Positions 31,301 to 59,345 of a stretch of 64,000 nt of DNA are shown piece after piece. Under the pieces are notes generated by a model. That model searched no databases and was not told the origin of the DNA. It saw only the letters and a program-made list of their open reading frames with translations. How positions within the stretch are numbered: the stretch's first letter is position 1; every line of letters starts with the position of its first letter. A program made the position numbers and the translations under genes. The stretch spans positions 7,564,001-7,628,000 of the forward strand of contig OY783214.1 in assembly GCA_963678705.1 (NCBI GenBank), given 5' to 3'. Source of the DNA: Panorpa germanica (lineage: Eukaryota; Arthropoda; Insecta; Mecoptera; Panorpidae).

Positions 31301-32655
31301 AAATTTTGTTAAAAAGTCAATTTTTTGTTTTGACAAATAAAACATGTACTCGAACGTAGTTTTTTATGCTGATTACAAAAATGAAATCCATTTTTAAATA
31401 TCTCTATTATTTATGCCTAATCATGTCGATATCTCGAAAAACGGGACACCTAGAAAAAAACAAATGGCAGATTTCAAATCAGCGTAAAAAAGTACGTTTA
31501 TAACCACTCTAAAATTAACAAAATCAAAAGTTGAATTTTTATGAAATTAACAAGAGTATAACCTTTAAAAATTTGATAAAAAATCAATTTTTTCTTTTGA
31601 CAAATAAAAGATGTATTCTAACGTACTTTTTTATGCTGATTTTAAAAATGAAAATCAATTTTAAATATCCCTAATACTTACTATAGTTAGAAACTAAAAA
31701 AAAACAACAAATAAGAATTTTGCAGCCGTACTTAGTGCACCCCGTTTTATGAAATTCAAACTGCGATTTTTATGAAATTAACAAGAGTATAACCTTTAAA
31801 AATTTGATAAAAATTTAATTTTTTGTTTTGACAAATAAAAGATGTATTCGAACGTAGTTTTTTATGCTGATTTCAAAAATGAAAATCGATTTTAAATATT
31901 CCTAATACTTACTATATTTAGAAAGTAAAAAGAGAACAACTAATAAGAAATTTGCAGCCGTACTTAGTGCACCTCGTTTTCTGAAATTCAAACTGCTGTT
32001 TTTATGAAATTAACAAGAGTATAACCTTTAAAAATTTGATAAAAAGTCAATTGTTTGTTTTGACAAATAAAAGATGTATTCGAACGTAGTTTTTTATGCT
32101 GATTACAAAAATGAAATCCATTTTTAAATATCTCTATTATTTATGCCTAATCATGTCGATATCTCGAAAAACGGGACACCTAGAAAAAAACAAATGGCAG
32201 ATTTCAAATCAGCGTAAAAAAGTACGTTTATAACCACTCTAAAATTAACAAAATCAAAAGTTGAATTTTTATGAAATTAACAAGAGTATAACCTTTAAAA
32301 ATTTGATAAAAAATCAATTTTTTCTTTTGACAAATAAAAGATGTATTCGAACGTATTTTTTATGCTGATTTCAAAAATGAAAATCAATTTTAAATATTCC
32401 TAATACTTACTATATTTAGAAAGTAAAAAGAGAACAACTAATAAGAAATTTGCAGCCGTACTTAGTGCACCCCGTTTTATAAAATTCAATCTGCGATTTT
32501 TATGAAATTAACAAGAGTATAACCTTTAAAAATTTGATAAAAAGTCAATTTTTTGTTTTGACAAATAAAAGATGTATTCGAACGTAGTTTTTTATGCTGA
32601 TTACAAAAATGAAATCCATTTTTAAATATCTCTATTATTTATGCCTAATCATGTC
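28355..32655 (+). repeat. satellite DNA, left part of the array (A/B monomers)
   Basis: About 18 direct monomers. All start near GAGTATAACCTTTAAAAATT and share the first 110 bp (through TTTTTATGCTGATT). They then diverge into type A (about 232 bp, with TTTGCAGCCGTACTTAGTGC and CACCCCGTTTTATGAAATT) or type B (about 268 bp, with CATGTCGATATCTCGAAAAA and GTACAAAAGTACGTT). The order here is irregular, including a run of five consecutive A monomers at about 29127-30289. The last B monomer is cut at 32655 by the big insertion and resumes at 55959. Short frames inside are by-products. Confidence 0.93.
32650..32655. repeat. target-site duplication, left copy (CATGTC)
   Basis: The six bases before the element are identical to 55959-55964 after it. 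The intact B monomer has a single CATGTC at this place. Confidence 0.92.
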
Positions 32656-32862
32656 AGTAGTTGAGGAGAGCCGCTTCTGGCTTAAATCATACTATGAGTT
32701 GGAAATTATTGGTGGTGGGGATGCATTTAGGTCACGGTATGCAGAGGGGGCGTGGCTAGACTTGGAAGAATGTAAAAGGGGGTAATAGTGGGGTGAGGAG
32801 TGAGGTGGCGTGGCTAGACAATGTTGGGGTAATAGTGGGGTAATATGAAAGAGTGAGATAGC

Positions 32863-32896
32863 GATATTAATTATTACGTGTGTAATAATTAATATC
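32863..32896. repeat. perfect 15-bp hairpin near the left terminus
   Basis: GATATTAATTATTAC, a 4-base loop GTGT, then its exact complement. It lies about 207 bp from the element end. It is followed by a second copy of the AAAGAGTGAGATA-CGATATTAATT block (32904 region). The same hairpin is at 55718-55751 in the right arm. Confidence 0.85.
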
Positions 32897-33171
32897 TAAT
32901 GGTAAAGAGTGAGATACCGATATTAATTCTTATGTTTGATTTGTTATTGGTTATAAGATTATGACAGTGTTAAATTATTTATAACAGTGTATTTATAACG
33001 CATTCCTTCGAATGTAACTTGAAGCACACGTGTTAGCAGGCGTCAGCAAAATGATAATAATTTCAAACATGTCGTATATATTAGAAGAAATATCAAAACT
33101 ATTGTAATTACTTAATTTATAATATATAAAAATTTAAAATGTATATAATTCTTTTATTTATTTAGTTATTA

Positions 33172-33447
33172 TTGATATTAATTGATAATATAAGTAAGAT
33201 ATATTTAAACATAATATATATACCAAATAAATTTAATTTAGGCATTGATTTAAAGTTAAATTGTGGATTACAGTGTCATTTGTTAATAGATTTAAATATG
33301 TTTAATCAATTTAAATTCTTTGATGAAATTATAATCAATCAGAATAATTTCTGTGAAACTTTTAGAGCCGGGTTACTTTTTATATCTGAATTTGGAGACC
33401 CTGGATATGAGAGCCAAGACTCACTTGATTGGATTCTTAATGATTAA
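33172..33447 (+). CDS. unidentified 91-codon frame in the left arm
   Basis: The frame starts at a TTG just after a polypyrimidine-AG stretch (tttatttag at about 33158-33166), so it could be an exon rather than begin there. The C-terminus is less AT-biased (ISEFGDPGYESQDSLDWILND). No family is recognised. It has the same orientation as the polymerase gene and lies 1.2 kb upstream of it. An identical copy is at 55167-55442. Confidence 0.3.
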   Translation: MILIDNISKIYLNIIYIPNKFNLGIDLKLNCGLQCHLLIDLNMFNQFKFFDEIIINQNNFCETFRAGLLFISEFGDPGYESQDSLDWILND

Positions 33448-34200
33448 TTTTATTGCACTAATTACTAATAGATTGTAAATTTTGTTGTACATAGAAAATA
33501 TATCCAAATAAGGATAATTCATAAAGTATAAGGGTGCTAATTCATCCATTGAATTTACATGACTTGAACAATATGAATACAAAATTGCATGACTTAACCA
33601 AATATGGGCACAAAATTTTTATAGTACACTTTTATAGAAATTAAGACATAGTACATAAACCCATTACCAAACAGTTTAACTCGGTCTCGGTTTGATTCGG
33701 TCAAGTTCGTCGATTCTCACCATTTGCTATTTCATTTGACAGTTGTTACATTGTTTCGTTCCATACACTTATAAAAAAAATAGTTTTAGATACATTCTTT
33801 TATCTCAAGTTATATTTAAATAATAATAAATATATATAATAAAATATTATATTCTTGTCTGAGCGACGAGTATTTTGAGCAATACCGTTAGTAGGTTAAA
33901 GCATATTATTTCTTCGCATATTATGATTTCTTAGCTATATTTAAAAACTTAAAAAGGCTCTACATTATGCCTGATATAATGCAGCACTTTATACATGTTT
34001 CTCATACGCACTCAAATAATACATTTTAGGGTATATAAAAGAGATAGTAAAATAACAAATATATAATGAATTTTTATAAATTATTGAAATAGTTACGATA
34101 GATGTGTAAATATCTCTTATTGTATTGCAATATATTGAAAAATAACTAAATATTTGAGGTTCTGGTAGCCAACTTTATAAACATACTTTTACAGAAATGA

Positions 34201-34413
34201 GGCTCCTATTTTCTAACTGTTTACCAGACGTCTATATATTTTCTAAATTAAGCTATGTAAGTTAAGACAAAACTATCAGAAGACATTAAATAAAAAGCAA
34301 CACGGATCCTATACCTTGGAACTGGTATGAGTAGCGTAATTTGTAAAATATAGGCCTTTGAAAAATTGTTAGAAGTTATCAGCTGTCAGGTAAGCAGTTA
34401 CAAAATAGGAGCC
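34201..34413. mobile_element. short foldback MITE inside the left arm
   Basis: Inverted ends GGCTCCTATTTTCTAACTG and, on the other strand, GGCTCCTATTTTGTAACTG extend over 25 bp with about two mismatches. It has no coding capacity. Its mirror copy is at 54201-54413. Confidence 0.6.
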
Positions 34414-34636
34414 TTTTAAGTCATGGTTATCAAATATAACCTTTAGTGTCAGCAAGTGAGATGACATCCTGCAGAAATAATAAAATCCACTATACATTGT
34501 TAATGAACGCAGTCTTTAAAGTGTTTCTAGTTTAGATAAAAAGAAAATCGAAATATTATTTTGTGTAATTGTTTATTTTTGAAATTCATGTTCATATACA
34601 GCAAAAGTATAATAATACCTAATAATTAACATTCTT

Positions 34637-37600
34637 TTGTCAGTTAAAGATAAAAAGGCTATAGTAAATAATGATCAAGCTTGCTTTATGTGGGCTATAA
34701 CTTCAGCATTGTATCCAGCATCAAAAAGTATGGATAGAGTTACATCATATCCACATTATTCAAAAGTACTTAATTCAAATGGCATAGAATTACCGATGAA
34801 ATTAAAAGATATTAGAACATTTGAGAAGAATAATGATATAAGTGTGAATGTTTATGGACTTGAAAATAATTTCATTGTGGGACCGTTGCATTATACATCT
34901 AAAAAGAAGAAACAACATATTAATTTATTGTATATTGAAGATTTGAGTAATGGACATTATTGTTGGATTAAAAATATATCAAGATTAATAAGAAGTCAAT
35001 TTACTAAGCATACTAGTAAACAATTTTTGTGTGATGGATGCTTTTCATTTTTTAACACAGAAGATCAGTTAAATAGACATTTAGAATATGATTGCAATAA
35101 GATATATACAATCCTTCCTTCTAAGTATAACGCTAAAGATAAATTGGGTAATATGATATCTCAAAACATTTTAAAATTCGATAATCATAAGAATCAATTA
35201 CGCGTTCCATTTGTGATATATGGAGATTTTAAAACATTATTAAAACCCATTAGTACTTGTTATCCTGAAACTAATACATCATTTTCAAATAATATTCAAA
35301 TTCATGAACCATATTAAATGTTCCTTTAATGATTCCTTAAGTAAGTTTGTTACGTACAGAGGTATTAATTGCGTTAAAGTATTTATTGAAACAATAACTG
35401 ATACGTACAGAGGTATTAATTGCGTTAAAGTATTTATTGAAACAATAACTGAAGACGCTAAACAAATTTATAAAGTCTTAAATAAATTATCTGATTGGCA
35501 AAAACAGGAATATGATGAAGCTTCTATTTGCCATATTTGTGAAGGTATCCTCAATGGTGATAAAGTGTTAGATCATTGTCATTTAACTGGTAATTACCGA
35601 AGAGCTGCTCATAATCATTGCAATTTAAAATTTACAATTCCAAAGTTTATACCTGTCATATTCCATAACTTAAGTAATTACGATAGCCATATAATTGTAA
35701 AAGAATTAGGTAATGATAGTGAAAAAATTGAAGTTATTCCAGAAAATAAGGAAAAGTATATATCTTTTACGAAACATATTTTGGTGGAATCAAAAGTCGA
35801 TAAAAACGATAAAGTTCATAACTGCTATATTAAACTTAGATTTATTGATTCTTTACGATTTATGCATTCTAGTTTAGAAACACTTGCAAAAAATTTATTA
35901 TCAGAACAATTTTTCGAATTAAAAAATTCTATCCGAATGAAAATCATTTCAATTTATTAAAACGTAAAGGTGTATTTCCTTATGAATATGTAAATAGTAG
36001 GGATATGCTTAATGAATCTGACTTGCCATCTCAAAATAATTTTTATAGCTCACTTAATGGCTGTAATATATCTGACGATGATTACAATCATGCCAAAATG
36101 GTTTGGTATGCATTTGAAATGAAAACATTAGGGGAATATTCAGACTTATATTTAAAGATCGATGTTCTGTTGTTAACAGATATTTTTGAAAATTTTCGAG
36201 ATGTGGGCTATAAAACATATAATATACATCATTTTCAAATAATATTCAAATTCATGAACCATATTCTTTTGCTTATTATATTAAATGTTCCTTTAATGAT
36301 TCCTTAAGTAAGTTTGTTACGTACAGAGGTATTAATTGCGTTAAAGTATTTATTGAAACAATAACTGAAGACGCTAAACAAATTTATAAAGTCTTAAATA
36401 AATTATCTGATTGACAAAAACAGGAATATGATGATGAAGCTTCTATTTGCCATATTTGTGAAGGTATCCTCAATGGTGATAAAGTGTTAGATTATTGTCA
36501 TTTAACTGGTAATTATCGAGGAGCTGCTCATAATCATTGCAATTTAAAATTTACAATTCCAAAGTTTATACCTGTAATATTCCATAACTTAAGTAATTGT
36601 AACCATATAATTGTAAAAGAATTAGGTAATGATAGTGGAAAAATTGAAGTTATTCCAGAAAATAAGGAAAAGTATATATCTTTTACGAAACATATTTTGG
36701 TGGAATCAAAAGCCGATAAAAATGATAAAGTTCATAACTGCTATATTAAACTTAGATTTATTGATTCTTTACGATTTATGCATTCTAGTTTAGAAACACT
36801 TGCAAAAAATTTATTATCAGAACAATTTTTCGAATTTAAAAAATTCTATCCGAATGAAAATCATTTCAATTTATTAAAACGTAAAGGTGTATTTCCTTAT
36901 GAATATGTAAATAGTAGGGATATGCTTAATGAATCTGACTTGCCATCTCAAAATAATTTTTATAGCTCACTTAATGGCTGTAATATATCTGACGATGATT
37001 ACAATCATGCCAAAATGGTTTGGTATGCATTTGAAATGAAAACATTAGGGGAATATTCAGACTTATATTTAAAGATCGATGTTCTGTTGTTAACAGATAT
37101 TTTTGAAAATTTTCGAGATGTGTGCTATAAAACATATAATTTAGATCCCTATCAATATTATACAGCACCAGGACTTTCTTGGGATGCTATGTTAAATTAT
37201 ACATGTATTGAATTAGAACTTTTAACAGATATTGATATGTTACATTTTATTAAAAAAGGTATAAGAGGTGGAATATCACAATGCTCTCACAGACATGGAA
37301 TTGCAAATAATAAATATATGTCCAATTATGATTCAAATAAAGATTCTCAATATTTAATGTATTGGGATGCAAATAACTAAAGCTATTGAAGATAACTCAG
37401 ATGTTGGTTATATATTAGAAGTCGATTTAAGATATCCTAATTATTTGCACGATGAACACAATGATCTACCTTTCTGTACCGAAAATATTAAACCACCTTG
37501 CATTAAAACAAATGACGTTAAATTAATACCAAATCTAAATAACAAGTATAATTATGTGCTTCACAATAGATCGTTAAAGCAATGTCTTAAAAATAATCTG

Positions 37601-39370
37601 AAAATATCAAAAGCCGATAAAAATGATAAAGTTCATAACTGCTATATTAAACTTAGATTTATTGATTCTTTACGATTTATGCATTCTAGTTTAGAAACAC
37701 TTGCAAAAATTTATTATAAGAACAATTTTTCGAATTTAAAAAATTCTATCCGAATGAAAATCATTTCAATTTATTAAAACGTAAAGGTGTATTTCCTTAT
37801 GAATATGTAAATAGTAGGGATATGCTTAATGAATCTGACTTGCCATCTCAAAATAATTTTTATAGCTCACTTAATGGCTGTAATATATCTGACGATGATT
37901 ACAATCATGCCAAAATGGTTTGGTATGCATTTGAAATGAAAACATTAGGGGAATATTCAGACTTATATTTAAAGATCGATGTTCTGTTGTTAACAGATAT
38001 TTTTGAAAATTTTCGAGATGTGTGCTATAAAACATATAATTTAGATCCCTGTCAATATTATACAGCACCAGGACTTTCTTGGGATGCTATGTTAAATTAT
38101 ACATGTATTGAATTAGAACTTTTAACAGATATTGATATGTTACATTTTATTAAAAAAGGTATAAGAAGTGGAATATCACAATGCTCTCACAGACATGGAA
38201 TTGCAAATAATAAATATATGTCCAATTATGATTCAAATAAAGATTCTCAATATTTAATGTATTGGGATGCAAATAACTAAAGCTATTGAAGATAACTCAG
38301 ATGTTGGTTATATATTAGAAGTCGATTTAAGATATCCTAATTATTTGCACGATGAACACAATGATCTACCTTTCTGTGCCGAAAATATTAAACCACCTTG
38401 CATTAAAACAAATGACGTTAAATTAATACCAAATCTAAATAACAAGTATAATTATGTGCTTCACAATAGATCGTTAAAGCAATGTCTTAAAAATAATCTG
38501 AAAATAGATAAAATTCATAGAATTTTGGAATTTAAACAGTCCGATTGGTTAAAAAGTTATATTGATCTAAATACATTAAAAAGAAAGAACTCTGCAAATA
38601 CATTTGAGAAAAAACTTTTTTAAATTAATGAATAATTCAGTTTATGGTAAAACAATGGAAAATGTAGATAAACGTGTTGATATAAAGTTAATAACTCATT
38701 GGGATAATATAGGAAAAACAATGGGTGCTAATACACTTATAAGTAAACCAAACTATCATAGTTGTTCTATATTTCATGAAAACTTAGTTGCTATTCAAAT
38801 GCAAAAACTTAAAGTTTTTTATAATAAACCATTGTATTTAGGATTAAGTGTACTTGATATATCAAAAAACTTTAATATACGATTTTCATTATGATTTCAT
38901 CAAAAAAAAAAAAAAAATCTATAAAGGTAATGCTAAATTGTTGTATACAGATACAGATTCATTAATATATCAAATTAAAACAGATGATATATATGACGAT
39001 ATTAAGTGTAATCTAGATAAATTTGATACATCTAATTATCCATTTAATAATGAATTTTCATTACCTTTAATGAACAAAGCTAAATTAGACTTAATGAAAG
39101 ATGAATGCACGAGTAGTATAATTTGGGAGTTTGTTAGGTTAAGGTCAAAAATGTATGCAATTGATATTGAGGGTTCATGCACAGCTAAAGCAAAAGGAAT
39201 TAAGAAAAATATTGTAAACAAATTCAATATTAAAGATTATGTAAATTGTTTATCTCAGGATAACATATTATTGATCACAATGAATACCTTTAAATCTATT
39301 AAGCATACAATTTATACTCAAATGATAAGTAAAGTAGGTCTTAGTGGAAATGATAATAAAAGTTATGTAT
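34637..39370 (+). pseudogene. protein-primed family B DNA polymerase, left-arm copy, broken
   Basis: Fragmented frames, in order: an N-terminal domain (34637-35317) with a C2H2-like finger CDGCFSFFNTEDQLNRHLEYDC; an endonuclease VII-like Cys/His motif (CHICEG, LDHCHLTGNYRRAAHNHCN); an exonuclease-palm region (RFIDSLRFMHSSLETLAKN, LKIDVLLLTDIFENF); motif B (LMNNSVYGKTMEN, near 38640); and motif C (LYTDTDSLIY, near 38945). The exonuclease region is tandemly repeated, three partial copies with periods of about 916 and 901 bp. Breaks include a 17-bp deletion near 35317, a lost base near 35926, a Trp-to-stop near 36414, and truncation right after YWDANN in copies 2 and 3 that removes polymerase motif A. 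The last 16 codons lie beyond the gypsy at 47261-47311. Such polymerases replicate linear genomes of Polintons and related viruses. This copy cannot be functional. Confidence 0.85.
39367..39370. repeat. gypsy target-site duplication, left (GTAT)
   Basis: GTAT precedes the left LTR and recurs at 47261-47264 after the right LTR. The empty site in the right arm carries it once. Confidence 0.9.
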
Positions 39371-40119
39371 TGTTGTAAGAATTGTGTCGTATTGTCGTTC
39401 TGGAGGAGATTACTCAGCTTACTAGTACATTCTGCAGGGATGCTAGCTTCTGGTAGTAGATTCTTCAGTTGACGACTTCCAACACCAATTACAGTAGTAA
39501 TCGAATATCTTTCTTAAGATGATTAATAAGGATTCTTGTTCAGACGGTGTATTGTTGCAATTAGAGAATACTTGAGCGGTCTAAAGTAACCTCGTTGCGA
39601 CATGCGACGGTTGAACAATTAGTATCTTTTTATTACTATTAATACAAACACTTTTATTAAAATATATCATTTATTCGTTGTAATATTATATCTGCTTACT
39701 TAATTACAATAGTATTTTATTAGATTAACGAAGATGACAGATATAAAACAAAATGTAATTCTATAGTGTTATAATTTAATTAATAGTTGAAATGTGCTCA
39801 CTATTCAATACGTACGAAGTTGCGAATAGTAATGCTTGCTTTGAGACTCAGGAGAAGACTGGCTTTCAGCGTCTTGTGCAATTTAATATATAATAATTTA
39901 TTTCACATCACAGAACGCCAATACTGAATTACCAGCATTAAATCAATATTAATCTCCACAAACCAGAGACAATATTTATAAGCGCTAAACTTAAATAATT
40001 ATTCTTTACAATCTTAATACTAATACAAAAACTGTTTACATAATATAATTCTATTACATAATTAACATTTAATATCATTAAAAATAAAAGGTAAGTGCGA
40101 CATATGCGTACTTACAACA
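39371..40119 (-). repeat. gypsy 3' LTR (left)
   Basis: 749 bp, TG...CA ends with a 9-bp terminal inversion. By eye identical to 46512-47260. Confidence 0.93.
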
Positions 40120-40404
40120 CTCCTCAACCAAAGAAAAGGAACGCATATAAAACAAAACATATGCGTTTCTGCTCTAAGGAAAAGAAAAAGGAAAAATTGT
40201 GATAGGGGAGATGTCGTACATATCACAACACCCCCTTTCAAAAAAAAAGGGACACGTATAAAAACAAAATATACGAGTTACAATTCTAGAAAAAAACAAA
40301 AAGAGAAGCAAAGTGTCGACAACGATTCTGATCCCATCGTATAGAGTTAACACTGCTCCACAAAACAATCATCCCTGACAAAATCCATTTCATTCGTCAA
40401 GTTT
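40120..40404 (-). promoter_or_regulatory. gypsy 3' untranslated region with polypurine tract
   Basis: On the minus strand the sequence just before the 3' LTR reads GGTTGAGGAG, the expected place for plus-strand priming. The purine tract is short. The segment has no env-like frame. Confidence 0.5.
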
Positions 40405-43400
40405 TTATTCATTGGTACAAAATCTCTTCAACCTATTATTATGAACTACCGTATGTTTTTTACCAATTAGTATTTCTGTATTAACAGGGGATATAATTTT
40501 AGTAACTTTATACGGTCCTACGTATAAGGGTAAAAGTTTTTTTGACTGTCCTTTAGTTGGTAACTGTTCATTTCTTAATAAAACTAGTTCGTTTACTTCA
40601 GGTGTGAAAAGAGAATTGACCCTTTTATCAAAATATAATTTTGTTTTTTCTTTGCTTTTAACCAAGTTATTCATAGCAAGTTCCCTCGCTACTTGTAACC
40701 TGTGTTTGAGTTCTACTATAAAATTATTATAAGTATTTACCTCAATTGGTTCTTTATAAAAAATTGAAGGCAGATTTGCCTTATGTCCATAAATTAGTTC
40801 GAAAGGAGTAAAACCGGTCGCTGTATGCGGAGTTGTGTTATACACGAACATTGCATAGGGAATCCAATTTATCCAATCATCCTGCTTTTTACAAAAATTC
40901 CTTAGATACTCGGCAAGGGTTCTATGAACTCTTTCTAAGGCACCGTTGGTTGCTGGTCTAAATGCTGTTGTTTTTAATTGTTTAATTTTTAACAATTTGC
41001 ATATATCTTTAAAAATTTTCGACATGAAATTTGTTCCTTGGTCTGTTAAGATCATATTAGGAACTCCGTACCTACAAATAACGTTAGTTACTAATGCTTT
41101 CGCGACAGTATTTGCCTCCTGGTTTATAATAGGAATAGCTTCCGTAAATTTAGTAAGGTCATCCTGTATTGTTAGTAAGTATTTGTATTTGTCGTTGTCG
41201 TCTTTCTTGGGAAGATATACTATGTCCAAAGCCAACCTTTCGAAACTATGTTTCGAAGTCGATGTAATTGTTAATGGGCATTTATTTAATTTGCACACTT
41301 TATTCTTTTGACATGATACACATTGTCTAATAAAATTTTTAACTTTTCTAATCATACTTGGAAATTTAAAGTGTGATTTTAATCGTTTAATTGTTTTAGA
41401 AACTCCTAAGTGGCCTGCTGTGGGATTAACATGAAATTCCGAAATTACATTGTTTATTAACTCAGGGTCACTAATTTTAAGTATATTGTCATTATAAATG
41501 TGTACTATTATATTTGTTTTATCAAAGATATGTCTGATCATAGTTCGTAACTGGGCAAAATCTAATTTACTTAGTTCAGACTCGAACCTGTTCATAGCTA
41601 TGTTAGTAATTTTGTGTAAAGTACAAAAGTTTTTCAGATTCACTAATGCCAAAAATATTTCTTTATAATTTGGTAGATTAAAATGAAATTCCTTAATTAT
41701 TAAACAGATAATAAATCTAGTATCAATTTCAACATATGCAATTTCTGATACTTCTTTTTCTTGTATTAGAAATGCATTGATACTACTAAATTTATTGATT
41801 AATTCAGGAGAATTTCCAATTGAATTTTTAAAATCTTTTGATACAAAATCTACTAATGAAAATGACGTCGGTGCGTCATATAAACTTTTATCATGTTCAA
41901 TTACTTTATTGTTTATGATAATTTTATTTTTAATTATTTCTAAATAATTTTCGTATGTGACATCCATTGTTTCAACCTGAAGTGAGTATACGCGACTTAG
42001 GGCATCTACGTGTGGAATCGAACTACCTGGTCTATATATTACTTCGTAATTATATTCTTCTAGTTTTATCCGCCAACGCATAAGTCTAGAACTCGGGTCC
42101 TTAATACTCATTAACCAAGTCAAGGCTTGATGGTCTGTTACGATACTAAAAAACTTTCCATAGAGATAGGGTCTAAAATGAGCCACAGCCCATACTACTG
42201 CTAATAACTCACGTTCAGTAGTTGTGTAATTTTGTTGTGCCTTATTTAGAGTTCTTGAAGCATATGCTATTGGGTGGCTTTCCTTAATAGTACCTTGTGA
42301 AAGGACTGCACCTATAGCATATTTACTTGCATCCGTGGTTACAACGAAATTTTTACTAAAGTCCGGGTATTGCAAAACAGGTGATATGGTTAATTTATTT
42401 TTTAAAGTTTTAAATGATTCGTCGCATTGGTCTGACCATTCTAATACTTTAACATTACTGTTTGCTGCATTATATAGTGGTTTGGCTATCTCTGCGTAAT
42501 GCGGTATATGTCGGCGATAATAACCAGACATACCCAAAAATGTTTTAATTTGTTTAGGACTGTTTGGAATGGGGAAATTCTTTATTGCTTCTACTTTAGA
42601 AGGATCTGGTAGAATACCTGTTTCATTAATAACGTGACCTAAATAAATCAAATCTTTATGTAGAAAGTTACATTTGGATGGTTGGAGCTTCAAATTATGT
42701 TCCCGTAATTTAGAAAAAACGTTTTTTAATCTTTGGTTGTGCTCAGAAATGTTTTTTCCAAAAATGACTACATCGTCCAGATAGATTAAGCAATCTATTC
42801 CTTGCAAACCTGTGAGAACGTGAGACATAAGTCTCTGAAACATGGGGGGGGCTCCTTTAAGTCCGAATGGCATTCTTACAAATTGATAGTGTTTAAAGTT
42901 CGCACTAAATGCTGTTTTCTCTTTATCTTCGGGAAGCATAGGGACCTGGTGAAAACCGCTTGCTAAGTCAAGCGTAGAGAAAAATTTTGCACCACTAAGT
43001 TGGTCCAGTATATCATGTATAAGAGGCAAAGGGTAGGCGTCACTTGTTGTCTGCTCGTTAAGTTTACGGAAATCGACTACTACGCGGAATTGTTTATTAC
43101 CTAACGCATCTGGTTTTTTTGGTACTACTAATAAAGGTGCGTTATAGGGTGAGTCGCTTTCTTCAATTATGTTGTTGACCAACAGTTCCTGAATATGCTT
43201 TTCCACAATCTCTTTTTGCGCATGGGGCAATCGATACGGTTTAACGTTAACGGGTTTAGAAGAATTAATCTTTATCTTATGACTTAATGCGCTCGTACAA
43301 GATAACTTGTCTCCCGGTAAAAAAAATATGTCATTAAAGCTGTTACAGATTTCTATTAATTCTGTTACTAATTCTGAATTGACATGTGAAAGATTTAAAT

Positions 43401-45354: not shown

Positions 45355-45662
45355 AGTACTTAATTAAAGTTATATATAATATACAGACTAAAGATTATTT
45401 TGTACCAATAAACGACTCTCCGAAGAACAGGATTCTGACAAGGAAAAATTGCTAGCGAAAACAGTAACTCACAGGAAATTTCCGATGGGGCTCAGACACC
45501 GCAGTTGTAACAGGAAGGTAGTCTCTCTGATTGAACAGACTGCTATCTAACTGCTTCAGCTCTTTACTTCTCCTTTTCAAAATTCTTTCTCGTTCATAAA
45601 GATGTTCTAAAAATATTAAACATGAATTAATATAATTGTAGAAACAATTATAGGAAATATTA

Positions 45663-46070
45663 TAGTAGATATTCAAAAGTATTGGATATAATACTAAAAA
45701 TATTGAACAATGATGCTACAAAATTGTTATTTTATAACAAATATTCAAAAGTATTGAATATAATACTAAAAAATAATAGCTTCAATGAATTACAAGGATG
45801 CTACTAATAGATAGGTTATAGCAAATATTCAAAAGTATTGAATATAATACTAAAAAAAAATAATAGCTTCAATGAATTACAAGGATGCTACTAATAGATA
45901 GGTTATAGCAAATATTCAAAAGTATTGAATATAATACTAAAAAAATAATAGCTTCAATGAATTACAAGGATGCTACTAATAGATAGGTTATAGCAAATAT
46001 TCAAAAGTATTGAATATAATACTAAAAAAATAATAGCTTCAATGAATTACAAGGATGCTACTAATAGAAA
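45663..46070 (-). repeat. tandem repeats of about 85 bp in the gypsy leader
   Basis: Four copies with periods of 84, 87 and 85 bp share ATATTCAAAAGTATTGAATA and CTTCAATGAATTACAAGGAT. A more diverged fifth partial copy starts near 45669. The small period differences come from the length of an A run. The repeats lie between the primer site and the gag-pol start. Confidence 0.9.
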
Positions 46071-46488
46071 AAAATACAATTATCAATTTATGATAATAAT
46101 TGTATACAAGATAAAAAGATACTGTCTTATTATACTTAACAAAAAAACTTTCGATTTTGATCTATGTACAGCTGTGTGCAGGGTTCTGGAAACGATTAAC
46201 ATCAGTTTAGATTATTCCATTTGTTCTAGAAGCATCCATCCATTCGCTGGGGGCAAAAGATTTCTTTTTTTTCTGGTTCAGCGGGCTGTTGTTTTACATC
46301 CACCGGACTTGTAGAAAAATTATGTGAAATACAGATGAATTGACGTTCTATCTCGTACTCTTCGGCAATCTTGGAAATAATCGATCGACGTAGTGGTATC
46401 CAGAATAATTGATCTGCATCCAGGTGTAGAATATATAGAAAAAAAATTTTGGGCGTACCTCTTGGATATTTATGTGTAGGAATATCTC

Positions 46489-46510
46489 TTCGAGACCCCA
46501 CCTGACACCA
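46489..46510 (-). promoter_or_regulatory. gypsy tRNA primer-binding site
   Basis: On the minus strand one base after the 5' LTR comes TGGTGTCAGGTGGGGTC, starting with the required TGG. Read on the plus strand, the 22 bases look like a tRNA 3' half: T-loop TTCGAGA, T-stem CCCCA, acceptor CCTGACA, then CCA. The tRNA species is not identified; a Leu-type acceptor ending CTGACA is possible. Confidence 0.7.
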
Positions 46511-46511
46511 A

Positions 46512-47260
46512 TGTTGTAAGAATTGTGTCGTATTGTCGTTCTGGAGGAGATTACTCAGCTTACTAGTACATTCTGCAGGGATGCTAGCTTCTGGTAGTAG
46601 ATTCTTCAGTTGACGACTTCCAACACCAATTACAGTAGTAATCGAATATCTTTCTTAAGATGATTAATAAGGATTCTTGTTCAGACGGTGTATTGTTGCA
46701 ATTAGAGAATACTTGAGCGGTCTAAAGTAACCTCGTTGCGACATGCGACGGTTGAACAATTAGTATCTTTTTATTACTATTAATACAAACACTTTTATTA
46801 AAATATATCATTTATTCGTTGTAATATTATATCTGCTTACTTAATTACAATAGTATTTTATTAGATTAACGAAGATGACAGATATAAAACAAAATGTAAT
46901 TCTATAGTGTTATAATTTAATTAATAGTTGAAATGTGCTCACTATTCAATACGTACGAAGTTGCGAATAGTAATGCTTGCTTTGAGACTCAGGAGAAGAC
47001 TGGCTTTCAGCGTCTTGTGCAATTTAATATATAATAATTTATTTCACATCACAGAACGCCAATACTGAATTACCAGCATTAAATCAATATTAATCTCCAC
47101 AAACCAGAGACAATATTTATAAGCGCTAAACTTAAATAATTATTCTTTACAATCTTAATACTAATACAAAAACTGTTTACATAATATAATTCTATTACAT
47201 AATTAACATTTAATATCATTAAAAATAAAAGGTAAGTGCGACATATGCGTACTTACAACA
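46512..47260 (-). repeat. gypsy 5' LTR (right)
   Basis: 749 bp, same length and apparently same sequence as the left LTR. It should carry the promoter driving minus-strand transcription of the element. Confidence 0.93.
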
Positions 47261-47534
47261 GTATTAACTGATGGTATAAGTACTTTAGCACATGGACATT
47301 ATAAAATTTAGTACTAATTTTAAGTTAAGTTTAAGTTTTGTATAAATTTATATCTGTTTTAGTTAAGATAATTAAAATGTATATTTATATAACAATTGAA
47401 AAATAGCATATTTATAAATAAATAATAATATATAAACACAAACCATTGAGTTTTATTATTATAAGATTTAATGTTTTAATACATCCATATAAAATAAGAT
47501 ACACATATTTTATTAGTAATGTTTTGTTATATAA

Positions 47535-47888
47535 TCTTAATATATATAAATTACGTGTCACTGTGTTGTCCTCGATGGACTCCTAAACTACTTCACCGAT
47601 TTTAATGAAATTTGTACACCGTGTGCAGTTTGACCCAACTTGAAAGATAGGATAGCTTACATCTCAATTTATTTATCTTATTGCTAATTATTTGTCTATT
47701 AATTATCTGTATATGACATATAACATCGGGCGACGATGATGGCAACATCTGTTGACTAGATTGAGTAAATATTCTGTTGAGTAAATCGAAATCTGTTGAC
47801 TAGATTGAGTAAATATTCAATAGATGACGCTATGTAATGTAATATGACAAAAACGTTAGGCACAGCAACGCGTGGCCGGGACAGCTAG
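47535..47888 (+). mobile_element. short Helitron, left-arm copy
   Basis: Starts TCTTAATATATATAAATTAC after an A and ends GGCCGGGACAGCTAG before a T, as Helitrons do. It is 354 bp, noncoding, with an internal repeat of GTTGACTAGATTGAGTAAAT. The same family is at 58923-59267. Confidence 0.75.
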
Positions 47889-47919
47889 TTCTTATATAAT
47901 TAACACTGGTCATAAGAGC

Positions 47920-47920
<1 letters not shown>

Positions 47921-47968
<48 letters not shown>

Positions 47969-48545
47969 TAGACATATTAATGTATGAGTATGCGTACATA
48001 AAGTGGATAACAATTGTATACGTTATATGCAGGAGCAGTACCCAACTTGAACGTAATGGGAACGTAACTTGCATGAACGTACTGGGAACTACGTTTAAGT
48101 TACGTTGAATTTTTATATATATGCATAGACATATTAATGTATGAGTATGCATACATAAAGTGGATGACAATTGTATACGTTATATGCAGGAGCAGTACCC
48201 AACTTGAACGTACTGGGAACGTAACTTGAACGTACTAGGAACGTAACTTGCATGAACGTACTGGGAACTACGTTCCCATTACGTTTAAGTTACGTTCCCA
48301 GTACGTTCAAGTTGGGTACTGCTCCTGCATATAACGTATACAATTGTCATCCACTTTATGTATGCATACTCATACATTAATATGTCTATGCATATATATA
48401 AAAATTCAACGTAACTTAAACGTAGTTCCCAGTACGTTCATGCAAGTTACGTTCCCATTACGTTCAAGTTGGGTACTGCTCCTGCATATAACGTATACAA
48501 TTGTTATCCACTTTATGTACGCATACTCATACATTAATATGTCTA

Positions 48546-48588
<43 letters not shown>

Positions 48589-48590
48589 GC
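47921..48590. repeat. palindrome core: TA tracts and four copies of a 157-bp unit
   Basis: Each arm ends in a TA microsatellite and then two direct copies (period about 157 bp) of a unit that starts TGCATAGACATATTAATGTA and includes GCAGGAGCAGTACCC. Next to it are short repeats built on GTAACTTGAACGTACTGGGA. The axis lies at about 48257 with a spacer of about 23 bp (48246-48268). The TA tract is 6 bp longer on the left. Confidence 0.88.
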
Positions 48591-48619
48591 TCTTATGACC
48601 AGTGTTAATTATATAAGAA

Positions 48620-48973
48620 CTAGCTGTCCCGGCCACGCGTTGCTGTGCCTAACGTTTTTGTCATATTACATTACATAGCGTCATCTATTGAATATTTACT
48701 CAATCTAGTCAACAGATTTCGATTTACTCAACAGAATATTTACTCAATCTAGTCAACAGATGTTGCCATCATCGTCGCCCGATGTTATATGTCATATACA
48801 GATAATTAATAGACAAATAATTAGCAATAAGATAAATAAATTGAGATGTAAGCTATCCTATCTTTCAAGTTGGGTCAAACTGCACACGGTGTACAAATTT
48901 CATTAAAATCGGTGAAGTAGTTTAGGAGTCCATCGAGGACAACACAGTGACACGTAATTTATATATATTAAGA
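48620..48973 (-). mobile_element. short Helitron, right-arm copy
   Basis: Exact mirror of 47535-47888. Confidence 0.75.
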
Positions 48974-49196
48974 TTATATAACAAAACATTACTAATAAAA
49001 TATGTGTATCTTATTTTATATGGATGTATTAAAACATTAAATCTTATAATAATAAAACTCAATGGTTTGTGTTTATATATTATTATTTATTTATAAATAT
49101 GCTATTTTTCAATTGTTATATAAATATACATTTTAATTATCTTAACTAAAACAGATATAAATTTATACAAAACTTAAACTTAACTTAAAATTAGTA

Positions 49197-52100
49197 CTAA
49201 ATTTTATAATGTCCATGTGCTAAAGTACTTATACCATCAGTTAATACATAACTTTTATTATCATTTCCACTAAGACCTACTTTACTTATCATTTGAGTAT
49301 AAATTGTATGCTTAATAGATTTAAAGGTATTCATTGTGATCAATAATATGTTATCCTGAGATAAACAATTTACATAATCTTTAATATTGAATTTGTTTAC
49401 AATATTTTTCTTAATTCCTTTTGCTTTAGCTGTGCATGAACCCTCAATATCAATTGCATACATTTTTGACCTTAACCTAACAAACTCCCAAATTATACTA
49501 CTCGTGCATTCATCTTTCATTAAGTCTAATTTAGCTTTGTTCATTAAAGGTAATGAAAATTCATTATTAAATGGATAATTAGATGTATCAAATTTATCTA
49601 GATTACACTTAATATCGTCATATATATCATCTGTTTTAATTTGATATATTAATGAATCTGTATCTGTATACAACAATTTAGCATTACCTTTATAGATTTT
49701 TTTTTTTTTTTTGATGAAATCATAATGAAAATCGTATATTAAAGTTTTTTGATATATCAAGTACACTTAATCCTAAATACAATGGTTTATTATAAAAAAC
49801 TTTAAGTTTTTGCATTTGAATAGCAACTAAGTTTTCATGAAATATAGAACAACTATGATAGTTTGGTTTACTTATAAGTGTATTAGCACCCATTGTTTTT
49901 CCTATATTATCCCAATGAGTTATTAACTTTATATCAACACGTTTATCTACATTTTCCATTGTTTTACCATAAACTGAATTATTCATTAATTTAAAAAAGT
50001 TTTTTCTCAAATGTATTTGCAGAGTTCTTTCTTTTTAATGTATTTAGATCAATATAACTTTTTAACCAATCGGACTGTTTAAATTCCAAAATTCTATGAA
50101 TTTTATCTATTTTCAGATTATTTTTAAGACATTGCTTTAACGATCTATTGTGAAGCACATAATTATACTTGTTATTTAGATTTGGTATTAATTTAACGTC
50201 ATTTGTTTTAATGCAAGGTGGTTTAATATTTTCGGCACAGAAAGGTAGATCATTGTGTTCATCGTGCAAATAATTAGGATATCTTAAATCGACTTCTAAT
50301 ATATAACCAACATCTGAGTTATCTTCAATAGCTTTAGTTATTTGCATCCCAATACATTAAATATTGAGAATCTTTATTTGAATCATAATTGGACATATAT
50401 TTATTATTTGCAATTCCATGTCTGTGAGAGCATTGTGATATTCCACTTCTTATACCTTTTTTAATAAAATGTAACATATCAATATCTGTTAAAAGTTCTA
50501 ATTCAATACATGTATAATTTAACATAGCATCCCAAGAAAGTCCTGGTGCTGTATAATATTGACAGGGATCTAAATTATATGTTTTATAGCACACATCTCG
50601 AAAATTTTCAAAAATATCTGTTAACAACAGAACATCGATCTTTAAATATAAGTCTGAATATTCCCCTAATGTTTTCATTTCAAATGCATACCAAACCATT
50701 TTGGCATGATTGTAATCATCGTCAGATATATTACAGCCATTAAGTGAGCTATAAAAATTATTTTGAGATGGCAAGTCAGATTCATTAAGCATATCCCTAC
50801 TATTTACATATTCATAAGGAAATACACCTTTACGTTTTAATAAATTGAAATGATTTTCATTCGGATAGAATTTTTTAAATTCGAAAAATTGTTCTTATAA
50901 TAAATTTTTGCAAGTGTTTCTAAACTAGAATGCATAAATCGTAAAGAATCAATAAATCTAAGTTTAATATAGCAGTTATGAACTTTATCATTTTTATCGG
51001 CTTTTGATATTTTCAGATTATTTTTAAGACATTGCTTTAACGATCTATTGTGAAGCACATAATTATACTTGTTATTTAGATTTGGTATTAATTTAACGTC
51101 ATTTGTTTTAATGCAAGGTGGTTTAATATTTTCGGTACAGAAAGGTAGATCATTGTGTTCATCGTGCAAATAATTAGGATATCTTAAATCGACTTCTAAT
51201 ATATAACCAACATCTGAGTTATCTTCAATAGCTTTAGTTATTTGCATCCCAATACATTAAATATTGAGAATCTTTATTTGAATCATAATTGGACATATAT
51301 TTATTATTTGCAATTCCATGTCTGTGAGAGCATTGTGATATTCCACCTCTTATACCTTTTTTAATAAAATGTAACATATCAATATCTGTTAAAAGTTCTA
51401 ATTCAATACATGTATAATTTAACATAGCATCCCAAGAAAGTCCTGGTGCTGTATAATATTGATAGGGATCTAAATTATATGTTTTATAGCACACATCTCG
51501 AAAATTTTCAAAAATATCTGTTAACAACAGAACATCGATCTTTAAATATAAGTCTGAATATTCCCCTAATGTTTTCATTTCAAATGCATACCAAACCATT
51601 TTGGCATGATTGTAATCATCGTCAGATATATTACAGCCATTAAGTGAGCTATAAAAATTATTTTGAGATGGCAAGTCAGATTCATTAAGCATATCCCTAC
51701 TATTTACATATTCATAAGGAAATACACCTTTACGTTTTAATAAATTGAAATGATTTTCATTCGGATAGAATTTTTTAAATTCGAAAAATTGTTCTGATAA
51801 TAAATTTTTTGCAAGTGTTTCTAAACTAGAATGCATAAATCGTAAAGAATCAATAAATCTAAGTTTAATATAGCAGTTATGAACTTTATCATTTTTATCG
51901 GCTTTTGATTCCACCAAAATATGTTTCGTAAAAGATATATACTTTTCCTTATTTTCTGGAATAACTTCAATTTTTCCACTATCATTACCTAATTCTTTTA
52001 CAATTATATGGTTACAATTACTTAAGTTATGGAATATTACAGGTATAAACTTTGGAATTGTAAATTTTAAATTGCAATGATTATGAGCAGCTCCTCGATA

Positions 52101-53977
52101 ATTACCAGTTAAATGACAATAATCTAACACTTTATCACCATTGAGGATACCTTCACAAATATGGCAAATAGAAGCTTCATCATCATATTCCTGTTTTTGT
52201 CAATCAGATAATTTATTTAAGACTTTATAAATTTGTTTAGCGTCTTCAGTTATTGTTTCAATAAATACTTTAACGCAATTAATACCTCTGTACGTAACAA
52301 ACTTACTTAAGGAATCATTAAAGGAACATTTAATATAATAAGCAAAAGAATATGGTTCATGAATTTGAATATTATTTGAAAATGATGTATATTATATGTT
52401 TTATAGCCCACATCTCGAAAATTTTCAAAAATATCTGTTAACAACAGAACATCGATCTTTAAATATAAGTCTGAATATTCCCCTAATGTTTTCATTTCAA
52501 ATGCATACCAAACCATTTTGGCATGATTGTAATCATCGTCAGATATATTACAGCCATTAAGTGAGCTATAAAAATTATTTTGAGATGGCAAGTCAGATTC
52601 ATTAAGCATATCCCTACTATTTACATATTCATAAGGAAATACACCTTTACGTTTTAATAAATTGAAATGATTTTCATTCGGATAGAATTTTTTAATTCGA
52701 AAAATTGTTCTGATAATAAATTTTTTGCAAGTGTTTCTAAACTAGAATGCATAAATCGTAAAGAATCAATAAATCTAAGTTTAATATAGCAGTTATGAAC
52801 TTTATCGTTTTTATCGACTTTTGATTCCACCAAAATATGTTTCGTAAAAGATATATACTTTTCCTTATTTTCTGGAATAACTTCAATTTTTTCACTATCA
52901 TTACCTAATTCTTTTACAATTATATGGCTATCGTAATTACTTAAGTTATGGAATATGACAGGTATAAACTTTGGAATTGTAAATTTTAAATTGCAATGAT
53001 TATGAGCAGCTCTTCGGTAATTACCAGTTAAATGACAATGATCTAACACTTTATCACCATTGAGGATACCTTCACAAATATGGCAAATAGAAGCTTCATC
53101 ATATTCCTGTTTTTGCCAATCAGATAATTTATTTAAGACTTTATAAATTTGTTTAGCGTCTTCAGTTATTGTTTCAATAAATACTTTAACGCAATTAATA
53201 CCTCTGTACGTATCAGTTATTGTTTCAATAAATACTTTAACGCAATTAATACCTCTGTACGTAACAAACTTACTTAAGGAATCATTAAAGGAACATTTAA
53301 TATGGTTCATGAATTTGAATATTATTTGAAAATGATGTATTAGTTTCAGGATAACAAGTACTAATGGGTTTTAATAATGTTTTAAAATCTCCATATATCA
53401 CAAATGGAACGCGTAATTGATTCTTATGATTATCGAATTTTAAAATGTTTTGAGATATCATATTACCCAATTTATCTTTAGCGTTATACTTAGAAGGAAG
53501 GATTGTATATATCTTATTGCAATCATATTCTAAATGTCTATTTAACTGATCTTCTGTGTTAAAAAATGAAAAGCATCCATCACACAAAAATTGTTTACTA
53601 GTATGCTTAGTAAATTGACTTCTTATTAATCTTGATATATTTTTAATCCAACAATAATGTCCATTACTCAAATCTTCAATATACAATAAATTAATATGTT
53701 GTTTCTTCTTTTTAGATGTATAATGCAACGGTCCCACAATGAAATTATTTTCAAGTCCATAAACATTCACACTTATATCATTATTCTTCTCAAATGTTCT
53801 AATATCTTTTAATTTCATCGGTAATTCTATGCCATTTGAATTAAGTACTTTTGAATAATGTGGATATGATGTAACTCTATCCATACTTTTTGATGCTGGA
53901 TACAATGCTGAAGTTATAGCCCACATAAAGCAAGCTTGATCATTATTTACTATAGCCTTTTTATCTTTAACTGACAA
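49197..53977 (-). pseudogene. protein-primed family B DNA polymerase, right-arm copy, broken
   Basis: The mirror image of the left-arm gene, with the same tandem triplication, deletions, stop and frameshifts. Here it is uninterrupted by the gypsy, so the C-terminus (about SYVLTDGISTLAHGHYKI, stop at 49197) is contiguous. A 14-base homopolymer near 49700 coincides with one frame change. Identical lesions in both arms mean the decay preceded the inverted duplication or was spread by gene conversion. Confidence 0.85.
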
Positions 53978-54200
53978 AAGAATGTTAATTATTAGGTATT
54001 ATTATACTTTTGCTGTATATGAACATGAATTTCAAAAATAAACAATTACACAAAATAATATTTCGATTTTCTTTTTATCTAAACTAGAAACACTTTAAAG
54101 ACTGCGTTCATTAACAATGTATAGTGGATTTTATTATTTCTGCAGGATGTCATCTCACTTGCTGACACTAAAGGTTATATTTGATAACCATGACTTAAAA

Positions 54201-54413
54201 GGCTCCTATTTTGTAACTGCTTACCTGACAGCTGATAACTTCTAACAATTTTTCAAAGGCCTATATTTTACAAATTACGCTACTCATACCAGTTCCAAGG
54301 TATAGGATCCGTGTTGCTTTTTATTTAATGTCTTCTGATAGTTTTGTCTTAACTTACATAGCTTAATTTAGAAAATATATAGACGTCTGGTAAACAGTTA
54401 GAAAATAGGAGCC
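54201..54413. mobile_element. short foldback MITE inside the right arm
   Basis: Mirror copy of 34201-34413. It was inserted before the arms became identical, or was copied with them. Confidence 0.6.
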
Positions 54414-55166
54414 TCATTTCTGTAAAAGTATGTTTATAAAGTTGGCTACCAGAACCTCAAATATTTAGTTATTTTTCAATATATTGCAATACAATAAGAG
54501 ATATTTACACATCTATCGTAACTATTTCAATAATTTATAAAAATTCATTATATATTTGTTATTTTACTATCTCTTTTATATACCCTAAAATGTATTATTT
54601 GAGTGCGTATGAGAAACATGTATAAAGTGCTGCATTATATCAGGCATAATGTAGAGCCTTTTTAAGTTTTTAAATATAGCTAAGAAATCATAATATGCGA
54701 AGAAATAATATGCTTTAACCTACTAACGGTATTGCTCAAAATACTCGTCGCTCAGACAAGAATATAATATTTTATTATATATATTTATTATTATTTAAAT
54801 ATAACTTGAGATAAAAGAATGTATCTAAAACTATTTTTTTTATAAGTGTATGGAACGAAACAATGTAACAACTGTCAAATGAAATAGCAAATGGTGAGAA
54901 TCGACGAACTTGACCGAATCAAACCGAGACCGAGTTAAACTGTTTGGTAATGGGTTTATGTACTATGTCTTAATTTCTATAAAAGTGTACTATAAAAATT
55001 TTGTGCCCATATTTGGTTAAGTCATGCAATTTTGTATTCATATTGTTCAAGTCATGTAAATTCAATGGATGAATTAGCACCCTTATACTTTATGAATTAT
55101 CCTTATTTGGATATATTTTCTATGTACAACAAAATTTACAATCTATTAGTAATTAGTGCAATAAAA

Positions 55167-55442
55167 TTAATCATTAAGAATCCAATCAAGTGAGTCTTGG
55201 CTCTCATATCCAGGGTCTCCAAATTCAGATATAAAAAGTAACCCGGCTCTAAAAGTTTCACAGAAATTATTCTGATTGATTATAATTTCATCAAAGAATT
55301 TAAATTGATTAAACATATTTAAATCTATTAACAAATGACACTGTAATCCACAATTTAACTTTAAATCAATGCCTAAATTAAATTTATTTGGTATATATAT
55401 TATGTTTAAATATATCTTACTTATATTATCAATTAATATCAA
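55167..55442 (-). CDS. unidentified 91-codon frame in the right arm
   Basis: Mirror copy of 33172-33447 with identical translation. The arms are themselves identical, so conservation does not by itself show selection. Confidence 0.3.
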   Translation of the reverse strand: MILIDNISKIYLNIIYIPNKFNLGIDLKLNCGLQCHLLIDLNMFNQFKFFDEIIINQNNFCETFRAGLLFISEFGDPGYESQDSLDWILND

Positions 55443-55717
55443 TAATAACTAAATAAATAAAAGAATTATATACATTTTAAATTTTTATATATTATAAATT
55501 AAGTAATTACAATAGTTTTGATATTTCTTCTAATATATACGACATGTTTGAAATTATTATCATTTTGCTGACGCCTGCTAACACGTGTGCTTCAAGTTAC
55601 ATTCGAAGGAATGCGTTATAAATACACTGTTATAAATAATTTAACACTGTCATAATCTTATAACCAATAACAAATCAAACATAAGAATTAATATCGGTAT
55701 CTCACTCTTTACCATTA

Positions 55718-55751
55718 GATATTAATTATTACACACGTAATAATTAATATC
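55718..55751. repeat. perfect 15-bp hairpin near the right terminus
   Basis: Mirror copy of the hairpin at 32863-32896, again about 207 bp from the element end. Confidence 0.85.
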
Positions 55752-55958
55752 GCTATCTCACTCTTTCATATTACCCCACTATTACCCCAACATTGTCTAG
55801 CCACGCCACCTCACTCCTCACCCCACTATTACCCCCTTTTACATTCTTCCAAGTCTAGCCACGCCCCCTCTGCATACCGTGACCTAAATGCATCCCCACC
55901 ACCAATAATTTCCAACTCATAGTATGATTTAAGCCAGAAGCGGCTCTCCTCAACTACT

Positions 55959-55964
55959 CATGTC
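55959..55964. repeat. target-site duplication, right copy (CATGTC)
   Basis: Matches 32650-32655. Satellite sequence resumes in register directly from here (CATGTCGATATCTCG). Confidence 0.92.
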
Positions 55965-58787: not shown

Positions 58788-58922
58788 ATTACGATATAAA
58801 TCGATACGTGAAGTCAATTTATTGGGCCTCTATTTACCTACTGAAGGATCACTTATTCAGGCCTGACGCCTCAATTTAGCAGCCCAGTAATCAATTTGTT
58901 TTATTTAAACCTAGGGTTATAA

Positions 58923-59267
58923 TCTCTTAATATATATAAATTACGTGTCACGTTGTTTGTCCGAGTTTGTCCGCGATGGACTCCTAAACTACTTAACCGA
59001 TTTTAATCAAATTTGTACACCGTGTGCAGTTTGATCCAACTGGAAAGATAGGATAGCTTACATCTCAATTTATGATTGCAATATTATCTTATTGCAAATT
59101 AATTAATTATCTGTTAGCTCCAAACGATTTTAAAAGATGGCGACATCTGTTGACTAGATTGAGTAAATATTCTGTTGACTAGATTGAGTAAATATTCAAT
59201 AGATGGCGCTATGTAATGTAATATGACAAAAACGTTAGGCACAGCAACGCGTGGCCGGGACAGCTAG
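58923..59267 (+). mobile_element. short Helitron, third copy
   Basis: Same family as in the palindrome arms: TC start, CCGATTTTAAT near the 5' end, GTGGCCGGGACAGCTAG end followed by T. It differs by substitutions and small indels from the arm copies. Confidence 0.75.
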
Positions 59268-59345
59268 TTTAAGATAAGTCTGAAGGCAGTTTTGACTGAA
59301 TACAATTAATTTCGAGGCGCGGCGAGATATTACTATTTATATTAA

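Follow-up and report, generated by a model that had tools for sequence, protein, structure and literature searches.

What kind of element leaves an almost perfect palindrome, carrying the ends of a Polinton and an intact insertion site, in an insect genome? The question is raised by positions 32656-55958 of the window, by which we mean the whole 64,000-nucleotide stretch of Panorpa germanica contig OY783214.1 that was analysed (assembly GCA_963678705.1, positions 7,564,001 to 7,628,000; C11:7564001-7628000). We found that this element belongs to a multi-copy family of palindromic elements and is not unique. The family probably represents a capsid-less lineage that came from Polintons, was born by fold-back, is recopied arm from arm and moves with a borrowed integrase.

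In the window element, the outer arms (32656-39371 and 49243-55958) match base for base as reverse complements for 6716 nt. Between the inner arms there is one 6-bp (AT)3 indel (47924-47929) along with three substitutions (48228, 48235 and 48237), which are the same microsatellite and axis-near changes that an earlier note on this DNA had listed; its description of a near-perfect palindrome with ~7.7-kb arms and a spacer of ~23 nt was borne out by our arm comparison. Without a long terminal repeat (LTR) retroelement inserted in one arm, the element measures ~15.4 kb. Its AGTAG...CTACT termini are of the Polinton AG/AGT...ACT/CT type, and the AG...CT ends and the CATGTC duplication inside a satellite, both noted before, are present: with the element taken out, the joined flanks restore a 1001-bp satellite stretch (96.7% identity). 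As the satellite runs in the same orientation on both sides (32147-32655 versus 55954-56462, 99.4%), the flanks are not mirrored. The LTR retroelement, which the earlier note had missed together with the mirrored tandem duplications described below, is young; its 749-bp LTRs (39371-40119 and 46512-47260) are identical, and it has its own 4-bp duplication, GTAT, at 39367-39370 and 47261-47264. The element and its surroundings are laid out as follows.

28362-32655: satellite array on the left side, the insertion target
32650-32655: left target-site duplication, CATGTC
39371-47260, minus strand: LTR retroelement of 7890 bp, in the left arm only
47265-48245, plus strand: inner left arm (polymerase tail and axis-proximal non-coding sequence)
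48200-48316: converging ~11-bp GAACGTA-type repeats, placed by eye, limits approximate
48246-48268: axis spacer of 23 nt (59 nt under a stricter pairing rule)
48269-49242, minus strand: inner right arm
55959-55964: right target-site duplication, CATGTC
55959-58790: satellite array on the right side, orientation as on the left side

The satellite (28362-32655 and 55965-58790) is built of ~232- and ~267-bp units that make up a 499-bp unit; the monomers adjoining the insertion are 99.4% alike, more so than the other pairs listed at that length. The LTR retroelement holds a single 1652-codon frame with matches to DUF1759, protease, reverse transcriptase, RNase H and integrase.

We searched this single genome (464.2 Mb in 249 contigs) for relatives, with genome-wide copy numbers being lower bounds. 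A polymerase piece of 321 amino acids had at least 128 matches (124 scored of 1629 candidates), or 124 after split ones were merged. Among 49 adjacent polymerase pairs no more than 16 kb apart, 45 faced each other, two were ++, one -+ and one --. The polymerase piece of a full Polinton, used as a control, had at least 125 matches and gave seven adjacent pairs (four facing, two pointing apart, one ++). All ten facing pairs that were fetched as adjoining halves proved palindromic; their arms are 4.4-7.7 kb long and 98.6-100% identical. Fifteen of 20 further pair centres were palindromic about their midpoint, in L057 and L060 across just 116 and 258 bp, and four about a displaced axis. Over 3963 bases, a sister copy on C9 shares the broken gene structure of the window element, and its target duplication, ATCCGA, is a different one; on C244, one arm matches the window sequence without a difference across 3963 bases. 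The suggestion made earlier of an undescribed lineage thus fared well: many palindromic copies were found, at different sites and with different 6-bp duplications, some of them with two long polymerase frames.

In the window copy, pieces of the polymerase match PF03175, the protein-primed family B polymerase, and the gene is broken in both arms. Partial tandem duplications lie within it (35399-36230/36315-37147 at 97.6% and 36705-37606/37606-38506 at 99.4%), and left-arm frame 38848-39378 continues into the LTR retroelement. The window copy is therefore a polymerase-defective member of the family, and of the earlier portrayal as a polymerase-only form with an intact integration signature the signature stood, but the polymerase gene is broken. 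Between the terminal ~393 bp and the polymerase the arm has short frames only, and six arm frames of at least 176 codons gave no match to integrase (rve), double jelly-roll capsid or A32-like ATPase.

34616-39371, plus strand: left broken polymerase (frames 34616-35317, 35244-35960, 36415-37380, 37720-38280 and 38848-39378)
35399-38506, plus strand: partial tandem duplications (~900 bp) within the polymerase; mirror at 50108-53215
49197-53998, minus strand: right broken polymerase (frames 49197-49766, 50334-50894, 51234-52199, 52654-53370 and 53297-53998)

Other copies have kept the gene. By hand count, 24 of the 128 polymerase matches listed lie within frames of 1280-1284 codons. In ten fetched pairs of a second subfamily, selected mostly for long polymerase frames, 17 of 20 arms have a 1284-codon frame and one arm a 1280-codon frame. 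The ratio of nonsynonymous to synonymous differences per site (pN/pS) was 0.32-0.35 in six between-lineage polymerase comparisons, two chimeric arms included, and 1.8-2.0 in two close comparisons (9-10 differences, too few for much weight). This pattern fits a polymerase that would be under selection while the element is mobile and would drift, relaxed, after insertion. A protein search with the polymerase piece returned 4203 matches of 4779 candidates; 21 public proteins from the best 120 of these were 51-58% identical to the window piece, and most of those with names belong to arthropods and cnidarians, while a few carry labels of bacterial metagenome bins. In viral contigs no match to the polymerase piece was confirmed, and an alignment used as the query found L001 (43%) and L002 (40%). 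In L001, matches to an integrase and an A32 ATPase adjoin the polymerase, and no inverted repeats of at least 40 bp were present in L001 (14.5 kb) or L002 (12.5 kb). A PDB profile search gave only one weak, unrelated match, and an Rfam search gave 0.

The ends connect the palindromes to full Polintons. The terminal 300 bp of the window element had at least 40 genome matches (40 scored of 910 candidates), and the comparison with full-length Polintons that the earlier note had proposed turned up nearly identical termini. An example is C5:20817654-20833813, an ordinary full Polinton fetched as two pieces, L039 and L040. It has terminal repeats of ~505 bp at 98%, a GATATA duplication and genes for a PF21738 double jelly-roll capsid, a PF04665 A32-like ATPase, an integrase (with a chromodomain match below the cut-off) and, at the right end, a polymerase (frame of 1269 codons). 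Its two ends are 97.5-97.7% identical to those of the window element over 399 columns, including a 6-bp gap. The outer 340 bp are 98.5-100% identical in 16 end loci of eight further elements, and C196, C5:19698944 and C1:28803576 have ends at 99.7-100% with one integrase and one full-type polymerase inside, in Polinton layout. Among the matches listed, C209 contains an integrase only, C1:7844591 a polymerase only, and C7 and C5:8609093 neither; C4, with window-type ends, is an integrase palindrome. Since the ends and an interior stretch of 456 bp are shared while the polymerases are 53% identical, the palindrome reads as Polinton ends plus an interior piece placed on a different polymerase.

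32656-33048, plus strand: left-arm terminal 393 bp, 97.5-98.0% identical over 399 columns to six end loci (the two L039/L040 ends among them)
33165-33620, plus strand: stretch of 456 bp, 99.8% identical to L039 1861-2316, in the left part of the full Polinton; mirror at 54994-55449
55566-55958, minus strand: right-arm terminal 393 bp, mirror of 32656-33048

At C1:5330880-5340444 and C5:7333199-7342934 we observed pairs of full-type polymerases whose centres resemble the common axis; at the C1 locus the two frames have 1262 and 1267 codons. Both pairs (C1:5330880/5339485 and C5:7333199/7341975) were considered as fresh snap-backs of a full Polinton and rejected, as their centres are 86-96% identical to the palindrome L042; because they resemble the axis of other palindromes, we read them as possible exchanges of the polymerase. 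The centre of another full-type pair, C1:8964590/8971552, was not palindromic.

The second subfamily, known from the ten fetched loci, has different ends (AGTAGAGGG...), with a 263-bp end region and a 153-bp tandem array; its tail and axis are related to those of the window element. Matched 6-bp duplications flank six of the eight subfamily-2 copies with both ends visible. For window-type ends, they flank all ten end pairs that we chose among the 40 end matches, one of which (on C2) was read by eye. Two candidates with subfamily-2 ends were followed up. The copy on C111, tried as a full Polinton, turned out to be palindromic too, with its polymerase deletion mirrored, and for the C15 candidate a 1.5-kb piece had no match in L029, L030, L039 or L040.

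At the axis, family members have converging 11-bp repeats (GAACGTAACTT and variants) around a spacer of variable length: under strict pairing, 42 nt in five copies, 40 nt in four, 6 nt in three and 18-219 nt in others. The 42-nt class contains a 38-bp self-complementary core with 107 genome occurrences at up to two mismatches, as against 0 for the reversed control; these are not a count of elements, because at several loci two or three cores occur, spaced by a few hundred bases. The core is absent from the window axis and from the ten subfamily-2 loci. At C1:7896228-7896929 and C6:20487482-20488207, three cores lie ~330-360 bp apart, a pattern suggestive of multiplication of the axis. The full Polinton has a similar repeat array, running in one direction only (L040 671-892, 8.7 kb from the left end), with the ATPase frame on one side and the integrase/polymerase block on the other. 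Among the palindrome centres examined, most such repeats in the right halves point the same way as this array, and given the presence of the array and this agreement in orientation, we propose that the palindromes may have originated by turning back at the array.

The integrase of the full Polinton had at least 124 scored genome matches of 2556 candidates, and 15 of 17 adjacent integrase pairs within 16 kb were divergent, 3.3-4.0 kb apart. Of eight divergent-pair centres fetched, six were palindromic across the full 1.2 kb (94.7-99.3%) and two in shorter or displaced stretches only. The 38-bp core is central in L084, L085, L087 and L091, occurs as two copies flanking the centre in L090, lies off-centre in L088, and was found in neither L086 nor L089 at up to three mismatches. 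In the C4 palindrome, the single arm inspected around this gene has a Polinton integrase segment (~99% identity) interrupting the palindromic polymerase, which is also rearranged; the target duplication of the element is CAGTTG.

Several changes in one arm recur in the other. The 153-bp array sets the distance at which the polymerase frame lies from the end. Among copies this distance varies from 1961 to 3177 bp, yet the two arms agree to within 1 bp in five of eight elements; two of the remaining three differ by one 153-bp unit, and the third is a chimera on C82. When the distances were shuffled, a mean of 1.25 elements agreed and 540 of 200,000 shuffles reached five. Each arm of the C9 sister has 2 differences from the window element in 3963 bases, a stretch over which its own arms are identical. 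Likewise, both arms of the C111 copy carry the same polymerase deletion. Compared by type and not by position, the stops in the polymerase piece of the 45 facing pairs were absent in 26, of the same types in both arms in nine, in one arm only in eight and of different sets in two. Seven elements with the full frame in both arms have 0, 0, 1, 1, 4, 9 and 28 (C82) arm differences in 3852 sites, and polymerase lineages differ at up to 57 of these. The best reading of these sequence patterns is that the arms of the palindromes are copied from each other.

Taken together, each element would be one Polinton-type end present twice, as mirror images joined at the repeats; an arm would comprise the terminal repeat, in most cases a protein-primed DNA polymerase, a tail and the converging 11-bp array. 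The first palindrome may go back to a Polinton on which synthesis reversed direction at the central repeat array. The polymerase would then start from a protein-bound end and displace a strand which, being self-complementary, could fold into a hairpin with the axis spacer as its loop, so that one end type would suffice and a palindrome with such a polymerase gene could replicate with few other components. Copying round the hairpin would regenerate the palindrome, one arm being made from the other, and the integrase of a resident full Polinton may recognise the shared ends and insert the product with a 6-bp duplication. Ends, polymerase and integrase could later be exchanged or captured, and then mirrored.

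A number of observations weigh against this account. One of the 20 further pair centres had no palindrome in 1.4 kb, 34 of the 124 polymerase matches lacked a facing partner among the matches listed, and L096, the centre of one full-type polymerase pair, was not palindromic. The axis repeats are ~74-87% identical to the array of the full Polinton over matched pieces, for which reason the turn-back origin is something we infer; this, and the 53% protein identity between the palindromic and full-Polinton polymerases, also mean that no direct parent was found. The head-to-head fold-back origin suggested in the earlier note accordingly survives as the best reading of the axis and the mirrored changes, and lacks the parent. 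The N-terminal piece of the polymerase matched only zinc-finger models and one model of unknown function. In subfamily 2, no full Polinton with the same ends was found in the genome, and two copies (L023/L024 and L021/L022) have no matched duplications; the latter, the C82 chimera, has arms from two lineages, 28 differences apart, between unmatched 6-bp flanks, and is either a recombinant or misjoined. No replication intermediate was seen, and gene conversion in place could also keep the arms alike.

Gene conversion is known for large palindromes, for example those of sex chromosomes. Elements that were inserted as palindromes and then kept identical in place, with no later hairpin replication, would account for the identity of the window arms over 6716 nt. 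However, the arms are 3-4% divergent at the axis in some copies or differ at 9 of 3852 polymerase sites, stops restricted to one arm occur in eight of the 45 facing pairs, and one-arm insertions persist, both in the window and at the four loci whose displaced axes we read in this way. In addition, both arms of the C9 sister carry the same differences from the window element. The axis divergence and the one-arm insertions in particular argue against strong conversion in place, and we consider this explanation unlikely. Large perfect inverted repeats are also a known class of assembly artefact, arising from missed-adapter or fold-back reads, and the earlier note had raised this worry. It is answered by the unmirrored flanks, the intact target duplication, the LTR retroelement in one arm only, and the 45 facing pairs across the genome, several of which have arm differences of their own, so that an artefact is extremely improbable.

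Each palindrome might instead be an independent, dead-end snap-back of a full Polinton that integrated by chance, with no lineage behind it. In favour of this are the ends held in common and the repeat array that the full Polinton carries close to its middle, but the polymerase, at 53% identity, is not that of the full Polinton, its long frames recur across copies with pN/pS near 0.33 between lineages, and several copies have an axis in common; we regard such independent origins as quite improbable. As for integration, a factor in the polymerase itself, such as an endonuclease VII-like zinc region, could stand in for a borrowed integrase: four polymerase pieces of L029 gave no integrase match, L029 has the polymerase plus an overlapping 124-codon frame and no other gene was seen in it, and the polymerase has an Endonuclease_7 match, albeit below the cut-off. 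Homologous polymerases elsewhere share this region (in Pfam, and in L001 below the cut-off), though, and the end-sharing and 6-bp duplications match Polinton integration, which makes this route very improbable. The preferred reading, a fold-back lineage recopied arm from arm, can be taken further. The elements may form an obligately self-complementary class whose axis is a heritable replication module that sustains a hairpin life cycle through many transpositions and swaps partners, the polymerase and integrase palindromes being a divided genome. Ends, polymerase and integrase would in that case be taken from resident Polintons, and each acquisition would be mirrored automatically. We put this extension forward tentatively, as somewhat more apt to be wrong than right.

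Among the remaining features of the window are inverted copies with ~81% identity at 48618-48982, in the axis-proximal arm, and 58916-59269, outside the element; an inverted repeat pair of ~221 bp at 13351-13571 and 22755-22975 (90% identity); and a Wnt gene exon at 25541-26056 in low-GC surroundings (best match 41%, mosquito Wnt-8).

Compared with a Polinton/Maverick such as L039/L040, the window element has the 6-bp duplication, the AGTAG ends, near-identical termini and a protein-primed polymerase. In contrast, it is all inverted repeat, where Polintons have short terminal repeats around a unique middle, and its arms are polymerase-only, where that middle encodes capsid, ATPase and integrase. 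On the strength of the duplication, the ends and the polymerase, and given that the other Polinton features are missing, we class it as a putative Polinton-derived palindromic satellite and not as a Polinton. In vertebrates, intact Mavericks are 12.7-24.6 kb long and are flanked by 6-bp duplications, and their terminal repeats measure 46-1447 bp (PMC8097293). Polinton polymerases belong to the protein-primed group, and their N-terminal domain, D1, is a homologue of terminal proteins (PMC11071308). Like a snap-back defective genome of a protein-primed system, the window element duplicates one genuine end head-to-head. The nearest described analogue that we found is the snapback genomes of adeno-associated virus (AAV), which also duplicate one end head-to-head, become double-stranded by folding and may act as helper-regulating satellites (PMC8235507). 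The AAV forms, however, are described as packaged by-products of a parent (PMC8235507), whereas here we see an integrated multi-copy lineage with its own polymerase, and AAV replication is generally taken as rolling hairpin, not protein-primed (PMC11575299).

Bidnaviruses are segmented and have a parvovirus-type capsid. They are likewise insect DNA with a Polinton-derived polymerase, but are single-stranded DNA viruses, and the excerpted text of PMC11071308 describes no palindromic bidnavirus genome. Of the foldback-type elements, which include Drosophila FB and Galileo, Galileo is grouped with P elements by its transposase (PMC3573991, in its excerpted text) and is set apart here by description only; a general scan of the window frames, with no search aimed at it, turned up no P-superfamily transposase. 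No description of palindromic Polintons was found among the titles and abstract openings listed from open-licence PMC literature.

How Polintons replicate and whether they move like viruses are open questions, and the palindromic family offers a natural record of replication. Mirrored changes point to arms copied from each other and shared ends to a helper, and differences between arms could date insertions in the way that LTR pairs do. As a palindromic architecture is easily mistaken for an assembly error, such elements may be overlooked; in Panorpa germanica, the family would be an inheritable counterpart of the snap-back defective genomes of DNA viruses.

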